From positions 1 through 64,000 of the forward strand of contig CAKZMM010000118.1 of the NCBI GenBank assembly GCA_937128505.1: 64,000 bases of DNA, in the 5' to 3' direction. Source of the stretch: an uncultured Thermogutta sp. GTDB taxonomy: Bacteria > Planctomycetota > Planctomycetia > Pirellulales > Thermoguttaceae. How positions within the stretch are numbered: position 1 is the first letter of the stretch; each line of letters begins with the position of its first letter. The notes under the pieces are model-generated. The model did no database searches and had not been told where the DNA came from. It saw only the letters and a program-made list of their open reading frames with translations. Positions 24,494-52,346 of the stretch are shown piece after piece. The position numbers and the translations under genes were made by a program.

Positions 24494-25762
24494 TTAGTCT
24501 GCCGGACCGAGAATGATCGCGTGGGCCTGGCCCGTCCATGCGTGGTTTAGGCACAGGGCGGTCGGCTCGTGCAAGGGTGCCGGTTGACCGTGCACAACCT
24601 CGATGGGGCACTGAGGATCGGGGATCTCATAATTTAGCGTGATCGGGATTTCCCGATGCACAATCGCCAGCACACTGCCCACTAGTTCCACAGCACCCGT
24701 GCCGGCCGCCAAATTCCCGAAAAAGCTTTTAAGGGCCGTCACCGGTACGCTTCCCAGCTCGGCCCGAATGGCTTGCGCCTCGACAGCATCATCATGGAGC
24801 GTGCTGAGCCCGTGAGCATTGACATGACCGATCTGCTGGGGCGTTAGTCCGGCATCGGCCAAGGCGCGGCGGATCGCGGAGCGGATCGCTTCTCCGGTGA
24901 TGAGCGAATGGCGAGGTTTGGGCTCAAAGCTGGCGGCAAAGGAAATTAACCGGGCCAAAGGCCGCGCACCACGAGCCGCGGCATGTTCGCGGCGCTCGAG
25001 AACGATCGCCCCGGCCCCTTCGCCGAATACCTGACCTGCCCTTCGCGCGTCGAAAGGGCGACAAGCTTCGGCAGGGTCGCGAAATCGCTCACAGGGCTGG
25101 TAAATCGGTCGCCGCGACCAGACGATCGGATGGGTCCGACAGCCGGTGCCGCCGGCGATCATCGCGTCGGCTTGTCCGCGTTCGATGACGCGAACCGCCT
25201 CGGCGATCGCCGCAAGGCTCGAAACCTCGCCCAGCACAATCGAGTTATTCGGTCCCCGGGCATCGAGGGCAATCCCGATGTGGCACGCCGGCATATTCGG
25301 CAGATATTTGAGCATCCAAAGGGGGAACATCTCCCCCATAGCCTGGGTTCCCCACCGGCTAGAATCGAAGCTTCCGTTGGTCAGACACTGCCGATAGGCC
25401 GGGGCTAGCTCCTCCAGCTCGCAAGAGATCATGTCGGCCCCGAAGACCACCCCCAATCGCTCCGGATCGACTTGCCCGGGGGCAATCCCCGCTTGGCGGC
25501 AGGCCAACTCTGCGGCCACGAAGGCAAGCTGAATATCGCGGCTCATCACCTTGAGGGCTTTGCGGGGCCGGACGAATTGCGCGGCATCCAGATTGGTGAC
25601 CTCCCCCACGGCCGCCGGGGACATCGGGGCACCGTCGAGGATCTCCGCCCGACGGAGTCCGCTCCGTCCCCGTCGGAGGGATTCCCAGAATTGATCGCAT
25701 CCAACTCCGATGGGGCAAACCACCCCTAGTCCGGTGATGACTACGTCAGTTTTTATCGGCAT
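24494..25762 (-). CDS. Ketoacyl-synthase-fold protein lacking catalytic Cys (KS-like, probably not a condensing enzyme)
   Basis: The 422 residues follow the FabF thiolase fold: VVITGLGVVCPIGVGCDQFW at the start, FDARRAGQVFGEGAGAIVLE near 238-256, the first active-site His in NAHG (H317) and Lys345. The nucleophile position, normally in TACATS, reads VLGEVSS with Glu at 179. The second His (normally GH) is Asn350 in FFGN, and the GFGGTN gating loop reads AWTGQA. A standard Claisen condensation is therefore unlikely. It may be a decarboxylase-like, chain-length-factor-like or scaffold protein. No acyl carrier protein or partner KS is nearby. It is soluble and single-gene, and a repeat array follows its stop. 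Confidence 0.8.
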   Translation of the reverse strand: MPIKTDVVITGLGVVCPIGVGCDQFWESLRRGRSGLRRAEILDGAPMSPAAVGEVTNLDAAQFVRPRKALKVMSRDIQLAFVAAELACRQAGIAPGQVDPERLGVVFGADMISCELEELAPAYRQCLTNGSFDSSRWGTQAMGEMFPLWMLKYLPNMPACHIGIALDARGPNNSIVLGEVSSLAAIAEAVRVIERGQADAMIAGGTGCRTHPIVWSRRPIYQPCERFRDPAEACRPFDARRAGQVFGEGAGAIVLERREHAAARGARPLARLISFAASFEPKPRHSLITGEAIRSAIRRALADAGLTPQQIGHVNAHGLSTLHDDAVEAQAIRAELGSVPVTALKSFFGNLAAGTGAVELVGSVLAIVHREIPITLNYEIPDPQCPIEVVHGQPAPLHEPTALCLNHAWTGQAHAIILGPAD

Positions 25763-26944: not shown

Positions 26945-27877
26945 ATGCAGACCTACACCGCGGCTTTGTCCACCATTGGAGCAATGGGGAGCGATCTCCG
27001 CGGGGAGTTTCCGCGGAATGGGAGGGCACAAAGCATTTCTTGGCCCAATCCGCAAAAACATCTTATCCTTGTGGGGGTAGTGGCCGCGCTAGTACTGGGA
27101 TGCGAAACCGGTTACGACCGGCGGCCCACCGCTACAGGCTCCGCGGGTTTAACGGCGGAAAATCAACGGGAAAGCGTTTCGCAAGAACCGGGTCAATCGG
27201 CCACCATGCAGGAGCCGGAGGCGACGCGGTTTCCAGGGGAGGTATCCGCGGGCCGGACGATAGCTTCCTCAAAGCCCTTAGGGAGCGGGGCGGCGGCTTT
27301 CGCCGAACAAACTTCCGATGCGACTGAACACGGCGAGATTTCCGCGGGGGTTTTTGGGTCGCCACCGGCGGGGGAGGGTGCGGCTCCCGGCGGCTCGGCA
27401 GCTGAGGGCTCCCAAAAAGCGAGTTCGGGATCGGCTCCCTACCCTGTGCGGCCTTGGCCCGGATTGAAAACGGAGTCTGCCGGGGCTGATGCATCTTCCG
27501 ATCGCAGTTTGCCCGCAGGTGGAAGACCGCGTCGGGGGGCTGAGCAAACGCCGCGTCCTGTCGGTCGGTCGGTTTCAGCGGGCTATCCGATTCAGCTTTC
27601 GACCGGCGTAGCACTCGCGCAAACGCTCCCCACAGGAACGGCCATGGGTTTTAGCGTCGACTACCGCTGGGTGGGAGGCCAACCGGCACCCGGGGCGACC
27701 TACTTTTGGGTGATTCGCGCCGCCTCCGGGCCCACCGTGCGGCAGCCGGTACAGCTCCAATCGCAGGGGACGCTCCAGGGGTTTGCCCTCGATTTACGAC
27801 CCGAGCATGGCCCCTTCGAATGTCACCTGGAGGATTATCGCGGTCAGGCATTATCGCCCAGCATTCCCTTGCGATAA
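26945..27877 (+). CDS. Lipoprotein with disordered linker and small C-terminal beta domain, 310 aa
   Basis: The ATG follows GAAAGGGGGGG. An unusually long basic leader precedes the hydrophobic HLILVGVVAALVLGC, with a lipobox Cys near residue 53. Residues 60-205 are Ser/Gly/Ala/Glu-rich and probably disordered. The last 105 or so residues look folded: YPIQLSTGVALAQTLPTGTA, MGFSVDYRWVGGQPAPGATY, GFALDLRPEHGPFECHLEDY. The function is unknown. The leader is long for a lipoprotein, so the true start could be further inside, but no later Met precedes the hydrophobic core with a binding site. Confidence 0.6.
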   Translation: MQTYTAALSTIGAMGSDLRGEFPRNGRAQSISWPNPQKHLILVGVVAALVLGCETGYDRRPTATGSAGLTAENQRESVSQEPGQSATMQEPEATRFPGEVSAGRTIASSKPLGSGAAAFAEQTSDATEHGEISAGVFGSPPAGEGAAPGGSAAEGSQKASSGSAPYPVRPWPGLKTESAGADASSDRSLPAGGRPRRGAEQTPRPVGRSVSAGYPIQLSTGVALAQTLPTGTAMGFSVDYRWVGGQPAPGATYFWVIRAASGPTVRQPVQLQSQGTLQGFALDLRPEHGPFECHLEDYRGQALSPSIPLR

Positions 27878-28118: not shown

Positions 28119-30005
28119 TCAGGTTTGGTCTGACACACCGCCCGGTGCTTGGCTTACTTGTGAAGCCGCATCGACCCAGGCGCGCAACTGTTCGGCCTCG
28201 GCCTTGATGCGGTCGCGGAGCGTAGGCTTATCCAGGTCCTTCGTGTCGCACAAGGTCAGAAGAGCCTGCATTCGCTCGAAAAGTTTTTGCATCTTCTCTT
28301 TGCTCGGCCCGTCGGGGATGAGTACGGCCACACCATCCATCGGGCGATTGGAGGGCACCCACATGAATTCATCGACGCTAGTGAGGCCAAAAAACACGGC
28401 GTTGATGCTGCTTTTAAGCCGGCGCCGATTGCCCAGGGTGCGGTCCGGCTGCGTTTGCTTGGCTTGAGTTCGCACTCCAGGATATGGATATCCCGGCATG
28501 TCAGGAGGCCCCATGCCGGGCATGGTGTCGTCCGTGTAAGTCCCGGCATAACCGGAAGACTCATAGCCATATCCCTCCATGGCACCCGCGTAGGGGCTAT
28601 ACCCCGGATAACCGGGATAACCGGGATAACCGGGCCTAGTGCCGGGGCCCGGCGGGAGTTCGCCTTCCTGAATTTCGCGTTCCAGCTCGGCCATTTCCGC
28701 TTCGCAAGCATCCAAGGCAAATTGTCCCAATTGGGCCAGGATTCGATCAGGATCCATTCCCGTGATGCCTTGATAGTCGAGCATGCCCAGCGCCCGGGCC
28801 GCCGAGCGACGGACCAAAAGCGGCTCGTCTTTGGCGCCCACGATATCGATGAGGAGTTTGCCCACTTGCGCTTGATCCCCCGGGAGTCCCAGTAGTCCCA
28901 AGACTTCGATTGCCCGAGCCCTCAGCCATTGATGTCCGACCAAGGTGCGTCCGGAGGGCGGCAATTTGGTGGAGGCTAACTCGATTAATTCCGGCAGCAG
29001 CTCGCCGGTCACCATTTGCTGGTCGGCGATCCCCAGCACTGCATGGCGGATCAATCCGACCAAAGCGGCCACGGAAAGGGCGTCGGGAAAGTTTTCGGTC
29101 TTTAGAGTATCTACGAGGATGCGGGCTGCTTGGGGCAGTGGAGTCGGCGGTTCGCGGATATTGGTCGATTCCACGGCGTTCAAATCGGCGATGGCCAAGA
29201 GGGCATTCATTCGTGCTGCCGGATGGTAGGGGCCACCTTCGTCGTTAACAATCCGGGAGAATAGCCCCAGGACAATCTGCTGGAGCTGCCCGTGCACAGG
29301 TTTCCCTCGGGCGATGACGAATTCCAGACGCAGTTCCTTACGAAAATCGGGCAGTTTGGTAAAGTTCTCCGGCCAAGTCCATCGGGCCAACGCATACTGC
29401 TCGTAGTAATCGCGGAAGACTGCTTCACGATCCGCAGGAACGGTCCCCGCGTTCAGGTAGCCCATGATTTCCCGCAGCCGGATCGCTTGCCAATCCTTCT
29501 CGGTGCGGGACTGATCGCCGCGAAGTTCGACAAACTTGATTTGATCCAAGGAAGGAGTCGCCGCTCGGGGAGGCGGCTGTGGGGGACTGCCCGGCGGGGT
29601 GGCAGCACCACGAGCTGGTCCTGCCGGCGGAGCAGGTTGCGGCGGTTGAGCGCCCGGCGCTTCCGCTGGTTGCGGTGGTTCCCCCGGTTGTACGGGTTGC
29701 GCTGCGGCACTATCCGCCGGAGGAGCTGCTTCAGGCGCTGGCGGAGATGCGGCAGGGGGTGCGGCTTCGGCTTGCGGGTTAGTCGGCGCGGGGCTAGCCG
29801 CGGGAGGAGCTGCCGGCTGAGAGGCCGCAGGCGGCGCCGGCTGTTGTCCGAATCCCGACCGGGTTCCGCAGTCCGCACAGCAAAAGAGCAGGAATAACCC
29901 CGTCACAACAACAAAAGTCCCGGCGCGACGCCAGGCCGGACTTACCCTCTGAACCGCACGCCGCCCAAATTGGCTAACGGCTTTGACCGGTTTTTTGCAA
30001 GACAT
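28119..30005 (-). CDS. Exported Pro/Ala-rich protein with helical-repeat domain, 628 aa
   Basis: A hydrophobic segment near residues 28-45 (AGTFVVVTGLFLLFCCADCG) serves as signal or anchor. Residues 55-150 are Pro/Ala-rich (PAPPAASQPAAPPAASPAPT). A helical domain follows at about 155-440, with paired helices such as RMNALLAIADLNAVE, LSVAALVGLIRHAVL and RARAIEVLGLLGLPGDQAQV, then LLVRRSAARALGMLDYQG, which look HEAT-like. Next comes a Gly/Tyr/Pro region with a PGY triplet repeated, then a C-terminal helical domain. I know this layout as typical of planctomycete exported proteins of unknown role. The ATG at 30005 has no strong binding site. Confidence 0.65.
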   Translation of the reverse strand: MSCKKPVKAVSQFGRRAVQRVSPAWRRAGTFVVVTGLFLLFCCADCGTRSGFGQQPAPPAASQPAAPPAASPAPTNPQAEAAPPAASPPAPEAAPPADSAAAQPVQPGEPPQPAEAPGAQPPQPAPPAGPARGAATPPGSPPQPPPRAATPSLDQIKFVELRGDQSRTEKDWQAIRLREIMGYLNAGTVPADREAVFRDYYEQYALARWTWPENFTKLPDFRKELRLEFVIARGKPVHGQLQQIVLGLFSRIVNDEGGPYHPAARMNALLAIADLNAVESTNIREPPTPLPQAARILVDTLKTENFPDALSVAALVGLIRHAVLGIADQQMVTGELLPELIELASTKLPPSGRTLVGHQWLRARAIEVLGLLGLPGDQAQVGKLLIDIVGAKDEPLLVRRSAARALGMLDYQGITGMDPDRILAQLGQFALDACEAEMAELEREIQEGELPPGPGTRPGYPGYPGYPGYSPYAGAMEGYGYESSGYAGTYTDDTMPGMGPPDMPGYPYPGVRTQAKQTQPDRTLGNRRRLKSSINAVFFGLTSVDEFMWVPSNRPMDGVAVLIPDGPSKEKMQKLFERMQALLTLCDTKDLDKPTLRDRIKAEAEQLRAWVDAASQVSQAPGGVSDQT

Positions 30006-48615: not shown

Positions 48616-51441
48616 ATGGCGGCCGCAACACTCCTCGGGCTGGAGAGGTATCGCGTCACTCAGGGCCATGAAGCGGAAATGAGCGAGCTTATTTGGACAG
48701 CTCTTAAGGTAGCGGAACCTCGCGCGCGTGCTCGCCAGGCTCATTCATTTAGCTCTCTACCGCTTTTGCTGCTTTTTGTCGGAGCCTGCGCCGGGATCAT
48801 GCTGGAGCGGATGGTCTTCCTGGCTTTAGAGCTTTGGGTCATGGCGGCCTTGGCCTTTGGGACCATCTGGCTTTTGCTTTGGTGGGTCCGGCAGGTGCGT
48901 GTGGCTTCGGTAATGCTTCTATTATCGGTGGCCGCGGTTTTTGGTTTATGGCATCAGCTTTGTTGGCGGTGGTTTGCGGCGGAGGAATTGGGGTTTTTTG
49001 CCTCCCCGTTAAATCAACCTGTGTTTGTACAGGGGATTCTTTTGGAGAATCCGCGGCTTGCGCCGCCCCCGCCGGAAAGGCCGATGATCCTTCGCCCGGG
49101 CGTTCCGCGGACCGTGGTGGGTTTCCAAGCGGAGGCGATTCGCGATGGCGAAAACTGGCGCCGCGTGACCGGCTATGCGCGATTGATCGTAGATGGTCAG
49201 CTCCTCGGATTTCGCGGAGGAGATCGCGTCCGGATTGTCGGTTCGCTCGGCAGCCTTCAACCACCAAAAAACCCGGGTGAATTCGACTTCGCTGCGTACG
49301 CCCGGGGCGATCGTCGTTTATGTTCCATTCATTGCCCATGGCCCGAATGTGTCGTGAAACTTAGCGGGCCGAGCCCGTGGAATATCGGGGCATGGCTTCG
49401 AAGGGGCCGCGGCTATTGCCATCAGGTGTTGGAAAAACATTTGGACGATCCGCAGCGCGGCGTAGCCACGGCGTTGCTGTTAGGAATTCGGGAGACCATC
49501 GAGGGCGACTTGGAGGATGCCTTCATCCAGACGGGTACTCTTCATCTGCTGGCGATCTCAGGTTTACATGTGGGGCTGATGGCCGCCATCGTTTTTAGGC
49601 TTTGGGGCTGGTTATGGCGTCGGGAAAAACTTGCCGCGCTTTTTACCGGTTTGACGGTGCTGGGGTATGCGCTTTTGGTTGATGTGCGCCCTTCTGTCAT
49701 TCGGGCCGCGGCTTTGGTCATTCTCTACTGTTTGGCTATTTTCTTGGGCCGGAAAGCCCGGGGGTTCAACCTTCTGGGAGGGGCGGGGCTCTGCGTCCTT
49801 ATTGCCAATCCTGCCGATTTGTTCCGCACGGGGGCACAACTTTCCTTTCTCGCTGCTGCCACGATTCTCGGAGGCATACATTGGTGGCTACAGCTCCGGG
49901 GAATGCCGCCGGACGAAGAGCCACTTGAGTGGCCCGCTTCGTGGCGTCAGACATGGGATTGGCTACGCCGAGGGCTCATCAAACTTGGGGAGCTTGGCCT
50001 CCTTAGTCTTTGGGTGTTTGCACTGCTGACCCCTTACACGTGGAAAAATTTTAATCTGGTTTCTCCGATTGCCCCGGGGCTTACGGTGCTTCTTTGGCCG
50101 TTTCTTTTCGTGATTTTGATTTGCGGCTTTCTGCTTTTACTGACGGATTGGCTCCTCCCGCCGCTTGCGTGGATTTCCGCGCAGGTCCTCTCCGGCTGCT
50201 TATGGATCTTCTGCCAGATGGTTCAATACGGGCGCGAAATCCCGGGCAGCTTCTTCTGGATCCCGGGCCCGCCAGGCTGGTGGGTGAGCGGCTTTTACAT
50301 CATTTTGGCCGCCTTCGCTTTGAGTCGCTGGCTCCGGCGTCGATGGTGGATCGCAGGGGGGATTGTCCTTGCCTGGATGCTGGTGCTTTTCAGCACCGAA
50401 GTTTTGAAAAGTCGACCGGAACGATTGCGCTGCACCTTTTTTGCCGTGGGCCACGGGTGTGCCATCCTTTTGGAACTTCCCTCGGGCCGCTCGCTCCTTT
50501 ACGACGCCGGTTCGGCCGGTGATCCGCAGTTCATGACGCCCCGTTTGGCACAGGGAATTTGGGCACAAGGAGTGCGGCGGCTTGACGCGGTGATCATCTC
50601 CCATGCGGATGCCGATCACTACAATCTCTTGCCCGGGCTGCTGGAACGGTTTTCAGTGGGCAAACTCTACGTGAATCGGGCACTATTCACGCAGCTTACT
50701 CCGGCAGAGCATCGCGATTCCGACTCCGCAAAAAGGGGTGAGTCCCGTCAAGATCAGGTGGATCGGGCCCCGGAACCTCTGGTAGGTGGGCTAGCCGCGT
50801 CGGGTATCGAGGCATCGGACTATCCCGAAGAGGAGGTCGCCGCATCTCCGCCGGAACCGGGAGTGGCTGCCCTTGCGGAAATACTGCGGCGTTTTCGAGT
50901 CCACATCGAACCCCTTCATGCCGGCGATGAGGTTTTGCTGGGCGATCCCACTTGCAGGATCCGGGTGCTCAGCCCGCCTAAAGATTACGACACAAGAGCC
51001 GGAAGTTTAGCAAAACGGCGAGAGCGTATTCACGGGGATAATGCCGCCAGTCTCGTAGTGGCCGTGGAATATCGCGGACGCCGGGTACTCCTGACAGGGG
51101 ACCTTGATTCCCCGATGCTGGAGCAGCTTATGGCTTCTCCGCCCCTTCCTTGCGACGTCCTTCAGGCTCCGCATCATGGGAGTCTCGGGAGTAATCCTGA
51201 AGGGCTTATTGAGTGGTGCTCGCCGCGGCGGGTGGTTGTCAGCGGCGGGCCGCGGTGGTTTGCCCCGGGGGTTCTGGCGGCCTATCGTCGATCCGGGGCC
51301 GAGGTATATCACACCTTCCTTCATGGGGCTGTGATTTGGGAGCATCCCGGTCCTGAGTTTCCCGAGAGGCAAGAGCCGTCGGTTAAGTTTTTCATGGGAA
51401 AAAACGGTTTTTCCTGGGTGAGAAAAGCTGACGTGGAGTAA
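48616..51441 (+). CDS. comEC: ComEC/Rec2-type DNA-uptake channel protein
   Basis: The inner-membrane channel carries single-stranded DNA during natural transformation. An N-terminal membrane and soluble OB-type part (DUF4131; NPGEFDFAAYARGDRRLC) leads into the competence domain, whose hallmark is ALLLGIRETIEGDLEDAFIQ and TGTLHLLAISGLHVGLMAAI. Many helices follow (LAALFTGLTVLGYALLVDVR). The C-terminal metallo-beta-lactamase domain carries DAVIISHADADHYNLLPGLL (HxDxDH) and LQAPHHGSLGSN. The length of 941 residues suits the full form. The start could be ATG 48616 or ATG 48679. No other competence gene is in the window. Confidence 0.88.
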   Translation: MAAATLLGLERYRVTQGHEAEMSELIWTALKVAEPRARARQAHSFSSLPLLLLFVGACAGIMLERMVFLALELWVMAALAFGTIWLLLWWVRQVRVASVMLLLSVAAVFGLWHQLCWRWFAAEELGFFASPLNQPVFVQGILLENPRLAPPPPERPMILRPGVPRTVVGFQAEAIRDGENWRRVTGYARLIVDGQLLGFRGGDRVRIVGSLGSLQPPKNPGEFDFAAYARGDRRLCSIHCPWPECVVKLSGPSPWNIGAWLRRGRGYCHQVLEKHLDDPQRGVATALLLGIRETIEGDLEDAFIQTGTLHLLAISGLHVGLMAAIVFRLWGWLWRREKLAALFTGLTVLGYALLVDVRPSVIRAAALVILYCLAIFLGRKARGFNLLGGAGLCVLIANPADLFRTGAQLSFLAAATILGGIHWWLQLRGMPPDEEPLEWPASWRQTWDWLRRGLIKLGELGLLSLWVFALLTPYTWKNFNLVSPIAPGLTVLLWPFLFVILICGFLLLLTDWLLPPLAWISAQVLSGCLWIFCQMVQYGREIPGSFFWIPGPPGWWVSGFYIILAAFALSRWLRRRWWIAGGIVLAWMLVLFSTEVLKSRPERLRCTFFAVGHGCAILLELPSGRSLLYDAGSAGDPQFMTPRLAQGIWAQGVRRLDAVIISHADADHYNLLPGLLERFSVGKLYVNRALFTQLTPAEHRDSDSAKRGESRQDQVDRAPEPLVGGLAASGIEASDYPEEEVAASPPEPGVAALAEILRRFRVHIEPLHAGDEVLLGDPTCRIRVLSPPKDYDTRAGSLAKRRERIHGDNAASLVVAVEYRGRRVLLTGDLDSPMLEQLMASPPLPCDVLQAPHHGSLGSNPEGLIEWCSPRRVVVSGGPRWFAPGVLAAYRRSGAEVYHTFLHGAVIWEHPGPEFPERQEPSVKFFMGKNGFSWVRKADVE

Positions 51442-52346
51442 GTTCAAGTAAGCGATGAGCAAGGGCGCGAGGACCGTTGAACCCGCGATTGCCTCGATTA
51501 TTACTTTGATTATGGATGCACTATTGGTTGTGAAGCCTGTCCGTCGAAAAAAGGAGCTCGCAATTTGAGGGAGCCAGAGGAGTGTCAAAAGCTAACGTAA
51601 TCCAAGGGGTTTGGTCCCGGGTCCATTTAGCGTGCCAGGGGGGCCGCCATTTTATATCCATATTTGCCGTCGTTTATCCATCTTTCCCATCTTGGCGTGA
51701 GGAAAAACCAGAAATTCGCCATTAACGTGTCGAGAAAGCAGAAGGCAGGGGGCGTAGGGCAGAACCAGAAATCGGAAATTAACGCGACGAAAGTGTAAAA
51801 GGCAGGAATAAAGAGTAAAGGCACGAATAAAGACATGAATAAAGAACAGAAGGCGGAAACTAAGTTCTTCAACCCGGATTGGCGCGAAACGGTCACGTGG
51901 TTTAAAGGCAATTTTGCCAACAAAATGAGAGTCAAATGACATTTTGTGGCGGATGTAAAACTCTGCACTGCGATCTACGCGGGTCGATTGGCCAAAAGAA
52001 AGCTTAAGTTGCGCGGAGAGCTTTGGGCCCAGAATCTGAGGTAAGAGAGGCACCGCCTCATCCTCACTTCTTAATCCTAAGTAACTTTCTCCTCGGTAGT
52101 TACGGCCTGCTGACAGACTATGGATTTCCCCGAGGCTTTTCCGGCGGACTCTCGGGCGATTGGGGGGCCGGAATCGGTGCCCTTTTCAGCCTGCGAAGGG
52201 GCTGGTAAATTGGTCATCTTTAGATAAACGGTAGTTAACAAGGGAAGTGAGTGGCGTGGTAAAAAAGGGTTGCTCCGCCGGATGGCAGTCACCGTGCGAC
52301 GGCGGTACCGTAGGCCGGTTCAGTTTGCGGAGAATTGTGCGCGACG
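51442..52346. other. Intergenic upstream of rpsO, AT-rich with imperfect repeats
   Basis: ACCAGAAATNCG...ATTAACG recurs 56 bases apart (51708, 51764), and GAATAAAG recurs three times at 51806-51845. No gene is supported. The rpsO promoter should lie in the right third. Confidence 0.5.

Follow-up and report, generated by a model that had tools for sequence, protein, structure and literature searches.

The window, the whole stretch of 64,000 nucleotides from an uncultured Thermogutta sp. that was analysed, contains on its minus strand an intact ORF, from the ATG start through the stop codon, that encodes a ketosynthase-fold protein. We use the name KSβ, coined in this analysis, for the planctomycete clade in which the protein falls, and KSα for the Cys-bearing partner. 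The features of the gene are listed below, with the corresponding residue positions assigned in E. coli FabF numbering.

24494..25762, minus strand: gene for a KSβ of subfamily A, a ketosynthase-fold protein of 422 aa and predicted non-catalytic subunit (ORF, Pfam, model and trees)
25550..25564, minus strand: predicted carrier-docking patch R67-K68-(A-L)-K71, corresponding to FabF position 64, Lys65 and Arg68 (KSβ conservation and codons)
25226..25228, minus strand: codon GAG of Glu179, at the position of the catalytic Cys163 of FabF (alignment, codon checked)
24812..24814, minus strand: codon of His317, corresponding to FabF His303 and kept (alignment, codon checked)
24728..24730, minus strand: codon of Lys345, corresponding to FabF Lys335 and kept (alignment, codon checked)
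24713..24715, minus strand: codon of Asn350, at the position of FabF His340 (alignment, codon checked)
24530..24541, minus strand: A-W-T-G (residues 408-411), replacing the GFGG gating loop (alignment, codons checked)

PF00109 and PF02801 were the only Pfam families matching the protein. Its best NCBIfam matches were FabF models, all far below cut-off; the TIGR03150 score was 256.3 bits against a curated cut-off of 493.75. The predicted structure (pLDDT 89.4, pTM 0.91) superposed on FabF 1e5m with a TM of 0.88, and the top match in the fold comparison was FabF (Z 60.3), with 1tqy_B at Z 57.5 and 6kxf_A at Z 56.7, a comparison that cannot separate a ketosynthase (KS) from a chain-length factor (CLF).

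An earlier note, made from the sequence alone, had claimed that the fold and one His are kept and that the catalytic Cys is replaced by Glu, the second His by Asn and the gating loop by another sequence. The results bore this out: both KS Pfam halves were present, the model was confident, and in the FabF alignment the catalytic Cys-His-His read E179, H317 and N350, with A-W-T-G at the gate. Realignment with FabF put no Cys at the active site. E179 fell at the Cys position in three separate alignments, among them the PDB alignments shown and that with E. coli FabF, and a realignment artefact was thus ruled out. A pseudogene was also ruled out, as the protein is full length and the mean column identity of a 25-row alignment is 64 %. 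The protein has an ordinary fold and a known substitution.

The neighbouring ORFs at 28119-30005 (minus strand, Pro/Ala-rich) and 26945-27877 (plus strand) gave no Pfam match. A tblastn search of the window with KSα, FabF, two dehydratases and two ACPs matched the KSβ gene alone. The claim that the gene stands alone, with no partner KS or carrier protein, was therefore correct for the window; it did not extend to the genome, which has a KS-ACP-dehydratase-reductase operon, or to other planctomycetes, which carry KSβ and KSα genes side by side.

Active-site residues of the non-Cys relatives

The residue at position 179 was acidic in 87/94 aligned non-Cys relatives, with E in 65, D in 22, R in three, G in two, and Q and N in one each; this set includes one 266-aa fragment (L046) and excludes L139, which has Ala. 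Among the 43 rows formed by the window protein and the Pirellulales loci L038-L080, there were 29 E, 11 D, 2 R and 1 G. The first His (H317 of the window protein) was conserved in 64/94 relatives and otherwise replaced by N, D, F, S, Q, R, Y, G or A, the second His position (N350) was N in 69/94 and H in 15/94, and the position of Lys345 was K in 87/94. In the Cys-bearing rows (n = 33), both His and the Lys were present in all 32 that have residues there. Since Glu or Asp is retained while the first His varies and the second is mostly Asn, the acid has been kept in KSβ and the catalytic His residues have not. The acid is thus conserved in orthologues, as the earlier note had asked to be checked, and random residues at 179 were not seen.

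Two KSβ, L140 (7284) and L152 (4422), carry Gln, as in actinobacterial CLFs, and Asn, respectively, at the Cys position and lie beside a Cys-KS. The fragment L046 (G015:C142:4359-5603) has an in-frame TAG, which reflects either decay or a sequencing error.

The earlier note had left the role of the Glu between a different chemistry and a structural function. A new Glu-based chemistry, in which the residue would serve as a base or nucleophile towards acyl chains on the carrier, would fit the retention of both the acid and Lys345; we consider it very unlikely, as the first His is free to vary, the second is mostly Asn, the gate is lost, seven KSβ have R, G, Q or N instead, and the operonic KSβ adjoin an intact Cys-KS. 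Retention of the acid next to a variable first His was counted in favour of a non-catalytic KSβ. The part of the claim that found no support is the different chemistry, and the variable first His, a poor fit with a Glu-based catalytic site, favours the structural role: Glu179 may be a structural or electrostatic residue that fills the dead site, perhaps paired with Lys345 in a putative salt bridge.

KSQ-type decarboxylation is understood to require both His residues. This makes a KSQ-like malonyl-ACP decarboxylase extremely unlikely in view of the frequent Asn at the second His position and the variable first one, even if a polar residue replaces the Cys and L140 has the Gln. In FabF, both His were indispensable, as stated in the accessible text of PMC2649909.

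KS genes of the genome and gene order in the phylum

KS-type genes number six in the genome, which also has a KS domain within a long frame. Three of the genes are acidic (the window gene, C82 and C143:534) and three Cys-bearing (the FabF gene C143:4857, the KSα gene on contig C63 and a divergent one on C84), so that three KSβ-type genes stand against one KSα of the C63 type. With TIGR03150 the C63 protein scored 513.8 bits, which exceeds the cut-off; its identity to the window protein is 35 %. Besides KSα, the C63 locus carries genes for a carrier protein of 130 aa, a FabG-type reductase and two dehydratases of the FabA-like kind; it has no KSβ. A scan of genome contigs gave four relatives, and no match reached 60 % in a plasmid search. 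With FabF-type matches counted, the window protein was matched in all 60 nearest genomes, its own included, and its profile in 384/392 genomes sampled across the phylum.

In a 97-row tree, built by a quick method, 63 non-Cys KS formed one clade (SH-aLRT 99), inside a wider clade (97) that also held four Cys-bearing KS and one Ala row, and the C63 KS of the same genome as the window grouped with the operonic Cys partners (21 rows, support 97). A careful 47-row tree gave 99/99 for KSβ, 95/95 for KSα and 83/96 for the Cys-bearing rows beside KSβ. The window protein grouped with the operonic KSβ and has the basic residues at FabF positions 65 and 68, and we therefore assign it to the planctomycete KSβ. 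The best tree placed this clade apart from the actinobacterial CLFs by 10.8 log units, a joint grouping not being rejected (AU p 0.164 and 0.146); a separate origin is no more than favoured.

KSβ lies directly before a Cys-KS on the same strand at 15 loci (L138, L140-L144, L146-L148, L152, L154-L157 and L172), with gaps of -4 to 103 nt in 13 pairs and 424 and 507 nt in two; since these loci were chosen by profile matches suggesting pairs or good scores, the number is not a frequency estimate. They come from other families of the phylum than the window's. A sixteenth pair, L145, is truncated at a contig end. The typical order is FabA-like, ACP, FabA-like, KSβ, KSα, as in L142, where serS and a comEC-like gene follow, and in L138 a KS, its KS-like partner (KSβ), a ketoreductase, two dehydratases and a carrier protein are encoded together. 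Genes at the loci were called with a home-made hexamer-scored caller, and starts may be misplaced.

Among 40 Pirellulales KSα loci, the series ACP-dehydratase-KSα was kept in 37, the second dehydratase in 35 and FabG beside the ACP in 22. KSβ adjoined KSα in none of the 40, its copies being dispersed. With a threshold of 65 % identity, KSα itself was present in 76/79 genomes, in two of them as cut copies, and was absent from G008, G036 and G047. In one genome of the same class, the coordinates of a KSβ-profile match and a KSα-like match of 55 % are 66 bp apart (G401:C170:49446-50669 and 50736-51983). Judging from G401 and L172, some adjacent KSβ-KSα pairs may persist in the window's class.

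The genes near Pirellulales KSβ copies included those for GNAT (16), desaturase (12), GTPase (8) and MMPL (5) proteins among 65 loci, two of which are duplicate stretches; none of these four lies beside the window gene in the neighbourhood checked. A sister group, subfamily C, also of acidic KS, is found behind fabF and 'Orf13' in 14/15 loci of the Pirellulales primary fab locus, the 15 having been picked since both genes shared one contig (subfamily C loci: L222, L223, L227, L229, L239, L240, L245, L249, L251, L252, L254, L256, L257 and L258, and L081 in the same genome as the window). A Pfam search with this genome's copy of 'Orf13' gave no match.

Carrier-docking residues, co-evolution and a probable split enzyme

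According to the accessible text of PMC7138838, FabF holds AcpP by Lys65, Arg68, Lys69, Arg127, Lys128, Arg206 and Thr270, and most of the contacts are made by the opposite, non-crosslinked monomer (Fig. 3 legend). On that arrangement, a carrier serving KSα could be docked by KSβ. We compared these positions in the three proteins. Position 65 was basic in 93/93 KSβ, 5/58 KSα (1/15 operonic, 4/43 Planctomycetia) and 40/40 FabF, and position 68 in 93/93 KSβ, 28/58 KSα (26/43 in Planctomycetia) and 39/40 FabF, the KSβ counts leaving out the fragment row that lacks a residue there, and related rows not being independent. Across six contact sites, the net charge averaged +4.1 in FabF, +2.25 in operonic and +1.29 in standalone KSβ, and -0.6 in operonic and -0.88 in Planctomycetia KSα. 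Thr270, the gate, the Cys, both His and the Lys were all kept in 58/58 KSα, and KSβ has lost Lys69 and mostly Arg127, Lys128 and Arg206. Because KSβ has the docking site and KSα is mostly without it, the two are probably one split enzyme. In three Streptomyces KS-CLF pairs, position 65 was basic in the non-Cys subunit only, and position 68 was inconsistent.

Three adjacent KS pairs, L149 (5986/4664), L150 (5986/4715) and L151 (6001/7294), have Cys in both subunits. In this two-Cys lineage, positions 64, 65 and 68 were basic in 4/4 β rows (L173 included) and 0/3 α rows, which suggests that the docking patch splits first and catalysis decays later. The three pairs possibly represent an early stage of the KS-CLF split.

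Co-evolution was examined by partial Mantel tests on pairwise protein distances. Subfamily A, to which the window protein belongs, correlated with KSα when FabF was controlled for (r 0.61, n 36, p 0.0005), and its correlation with FabF controlling for KSα was 0.065 (p 0.26). With SerS and SecA as controls, the partial r between A and KSα was 0.56 (p 0.0002, n 22), and that between A and FabF was not significant (0.06, p 0.33); the A-KSα signal thus exceeds what the relatedness of the organisms would give. With SerS alone the A-KSα value was 0.45 (n 30, leave-one-out 0.395 to 0.51) and with SecA alone 0.64 (n 24, leave-one-out 0.57 to 0.70); it was 0.48 and 0.64, respectively, after removal of five doubtful subfamily-A rows and two non-acidic ones, and the signal was robust to rank, subset and jackknife variants. 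With both controls, A also correlated with the ACP of the KSα operon (0.32, n 20, p 0.02); the two dehydratases gave non-significant values of 0.14 and -0.03, and the FAS ACP an unexplained -0.55, which means that the distances hold structure that is not understood. The mirror-tree signal between A and KSα is circumstantial. In many of the 34 Pirellulales genomes, a second SecA-like ATPase frame (~630-760 aa) was seen beside the ~1250-aa SecA, for example at G000:C17:12597-14081.

Pairing of the window protein with FabF of primary fatty-acid synthesis, and not with KSα, is highly improbable on these results. The place of subfamily C behind fabF, in loci preselected for one-contig linkage, and a correlation of C with FabF given KSα (r 0.39, p 0.02, n 13) speak for such a subunit, but FabF has its own docking lysine in 40/40, and subfamily A shows no co-evolution with it. 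The C-FabF correlation was dropped, as it failed with SerS and/or SecA as controls (r 0.157, n 11; -0.44, n 9; -0.76, n 7).

Among the 60 genomes, 50 had A-like matches together with KSα, two (G036 and G047) A-like matches only, seven KSα only and one neither, A-like being defined as a best match with E of 1e-104 or less, or as the partial 54 % matches of G004 and G013. Judged by presence, A and KSα do not form an obligate pair. Among the KSα-only genomes, G024 has a KSβ copy of subfamily C (L153), which might stand in for A.

The A-like matches without KSα, the several KSβ paralogues per genome, the separation of the KSβ gene from KSα at each of the 40 KSα loci and the kept docking lysines of KSβ would also agree with a homodimeric, non-catalytic carrier-binding or regulatory protein that has left the heterodimer with its gene and holds or sequesters acyl-ACP. 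We regard this as rather unlikely, since A co-evolves specifically with KSα and since the poor patch of Planctomycetia KSα, compared with that of FabF over the six sites, would be a burden on a free KSα homodimer.

What the sequences themselves show is the residues, the clade, the operons in other planctomycetes, docking sites that complement each other and the co-evolution. Taken together, these features point to the window protein as probably a CLF-like subunit that lacks catalysis and serves docking in a KSα-KSβ heterodimer, the genes of which have since separated. Several observations were counted against the heterodimer: the non-obligate presence, the FabF contact residues lost from KSβ, the basic position 68 in over half of Planctomycetia KSα, the seven non-acidic KSβ, the three KSβ-type genes for one KSα, the vanishing dehydratase correlations and the negative value with the FAS ACP.

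From the heterodimer, we infer the following docking geometry and mechanism. Within the same genome, the most likely partner would be the KSα of contig C63, which bears the Cys. KSβ would dock the acyl-carrier protein via R67-K68-K71, so that the arm could reach the Cys of KSα across the dimer; a further role of KSβ may be in shaping the distal end of the acyl pocket. After loss of the docking lysine from KSα, the active site of KSβ could have been poorly served, and its Cys-His-His could have decayed to Glu-(His)-Asn. Chain-length control by KSβ is suggested by analogy. The product is perhaps a reduced or unsaturated acyl chain, judging from the dehydratases and the reductase, and the desaturase and GNAT genes near some Pirellulales copies may point to lipid.

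It is conceivable, though doubtful, that heterodimers in Planctomycetia are combinatorial: one KSα, poor at docking alone, would be completed by any of several dispersed and separately controlled KSβ (three in the window's genome), the docking subunit setting chain length or substrate. Such a system would belong to core lipid metabolism and not to a natural-product cluster, and its CLF type would have an origin independent of the actinobacterial one.

For the preferred heterodimer, the implications are that a widespread Planctomycetia KSα (the one in 76/79 genomes) has a poor docking patch of its own, and that the signature of a docking lysine retained by one subunit and missing from its partner may reveal separated KS-CLF partners missed by neighbour-based mining. 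The puzzle of the acidic planctomycete 'FabF' paralogues, which dates from 2009, becomes a testable claim with a named partner and named residues.

Comparison with known systems

Rattray et al. (2009) described two FabF paralogues of Rhodopirellula baltica with Asp and Glu at Cys163 and proposed that their function differs (PMC2649909). One of them, NP_866153, has Glu, His, Lys and Asn (Table 2 of PMC2649909), the same set as the window protein, a likeness taken from the paper's table; the accessible text of that paper gives the paralogues no partner, operon or docking role. A 2023 catalogue has KS-CLF pairs from 14 phyla, Planctomycetes among them, and pairs over 2 kb apart were excluded from it, according to its accessible text (PMC10132072). 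The acidic substitution and planctomycete KS pairs are thus already known. In the open-access literature searched, no partner or function was found for acidic planctomycete KS proteins, and what is new, as far as we found, is the assignment of a partner, the separation of the genes and the evidence on docking.

With FabF (KASII), the window protein shares the fold, ~30 % identity and the basic residues at positions 65 and 68, but it is without the Cys, the second His and the GFGG gate. Membership in FabF/KASII was rejected, given the missing Cys-His-His and the score below the TIGR03150 cut-off. Membership in KSQ was rejected as well: residue 179 is Glu and not Gln, residue 350 is Asn and not His, and the protein is a separate 422-aa ORF and not part of a modular PKS loading module.

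Highly reducing type II PKS (aryl polyene ApeO-ApeC, ishigamide) share their gene set with L138. The same set is present in the window's genome except for KSβ, which sits apart. The window protein is full length, whereas ApeC is about half the size of a KS, as given in the accessible text of PMC8358021.

The CLFs of type II PKS (actinorhodin 1tqy_B, ishigamide 6kxf), to which the earlier note had pointed, proved to be the right comparison. They have the KS fold without the catalytic Cys, like the window protein, and the relatives of the window protein adjoin a Cys-KS, even though the window gene itself does not. In the three Streptomyces pairs, too, the basic residue at FabF position 65 is confined to the non-Cys subunit; at position 68 the actinorhodin-type pair departs from the pattern. 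Unlike CLFs, which have Gln at the Cys position, KSβ has Glu or Asp; its gene lies apart from that of the KS in Planctomycetia, and in the operonic relatives KSβ comes first.
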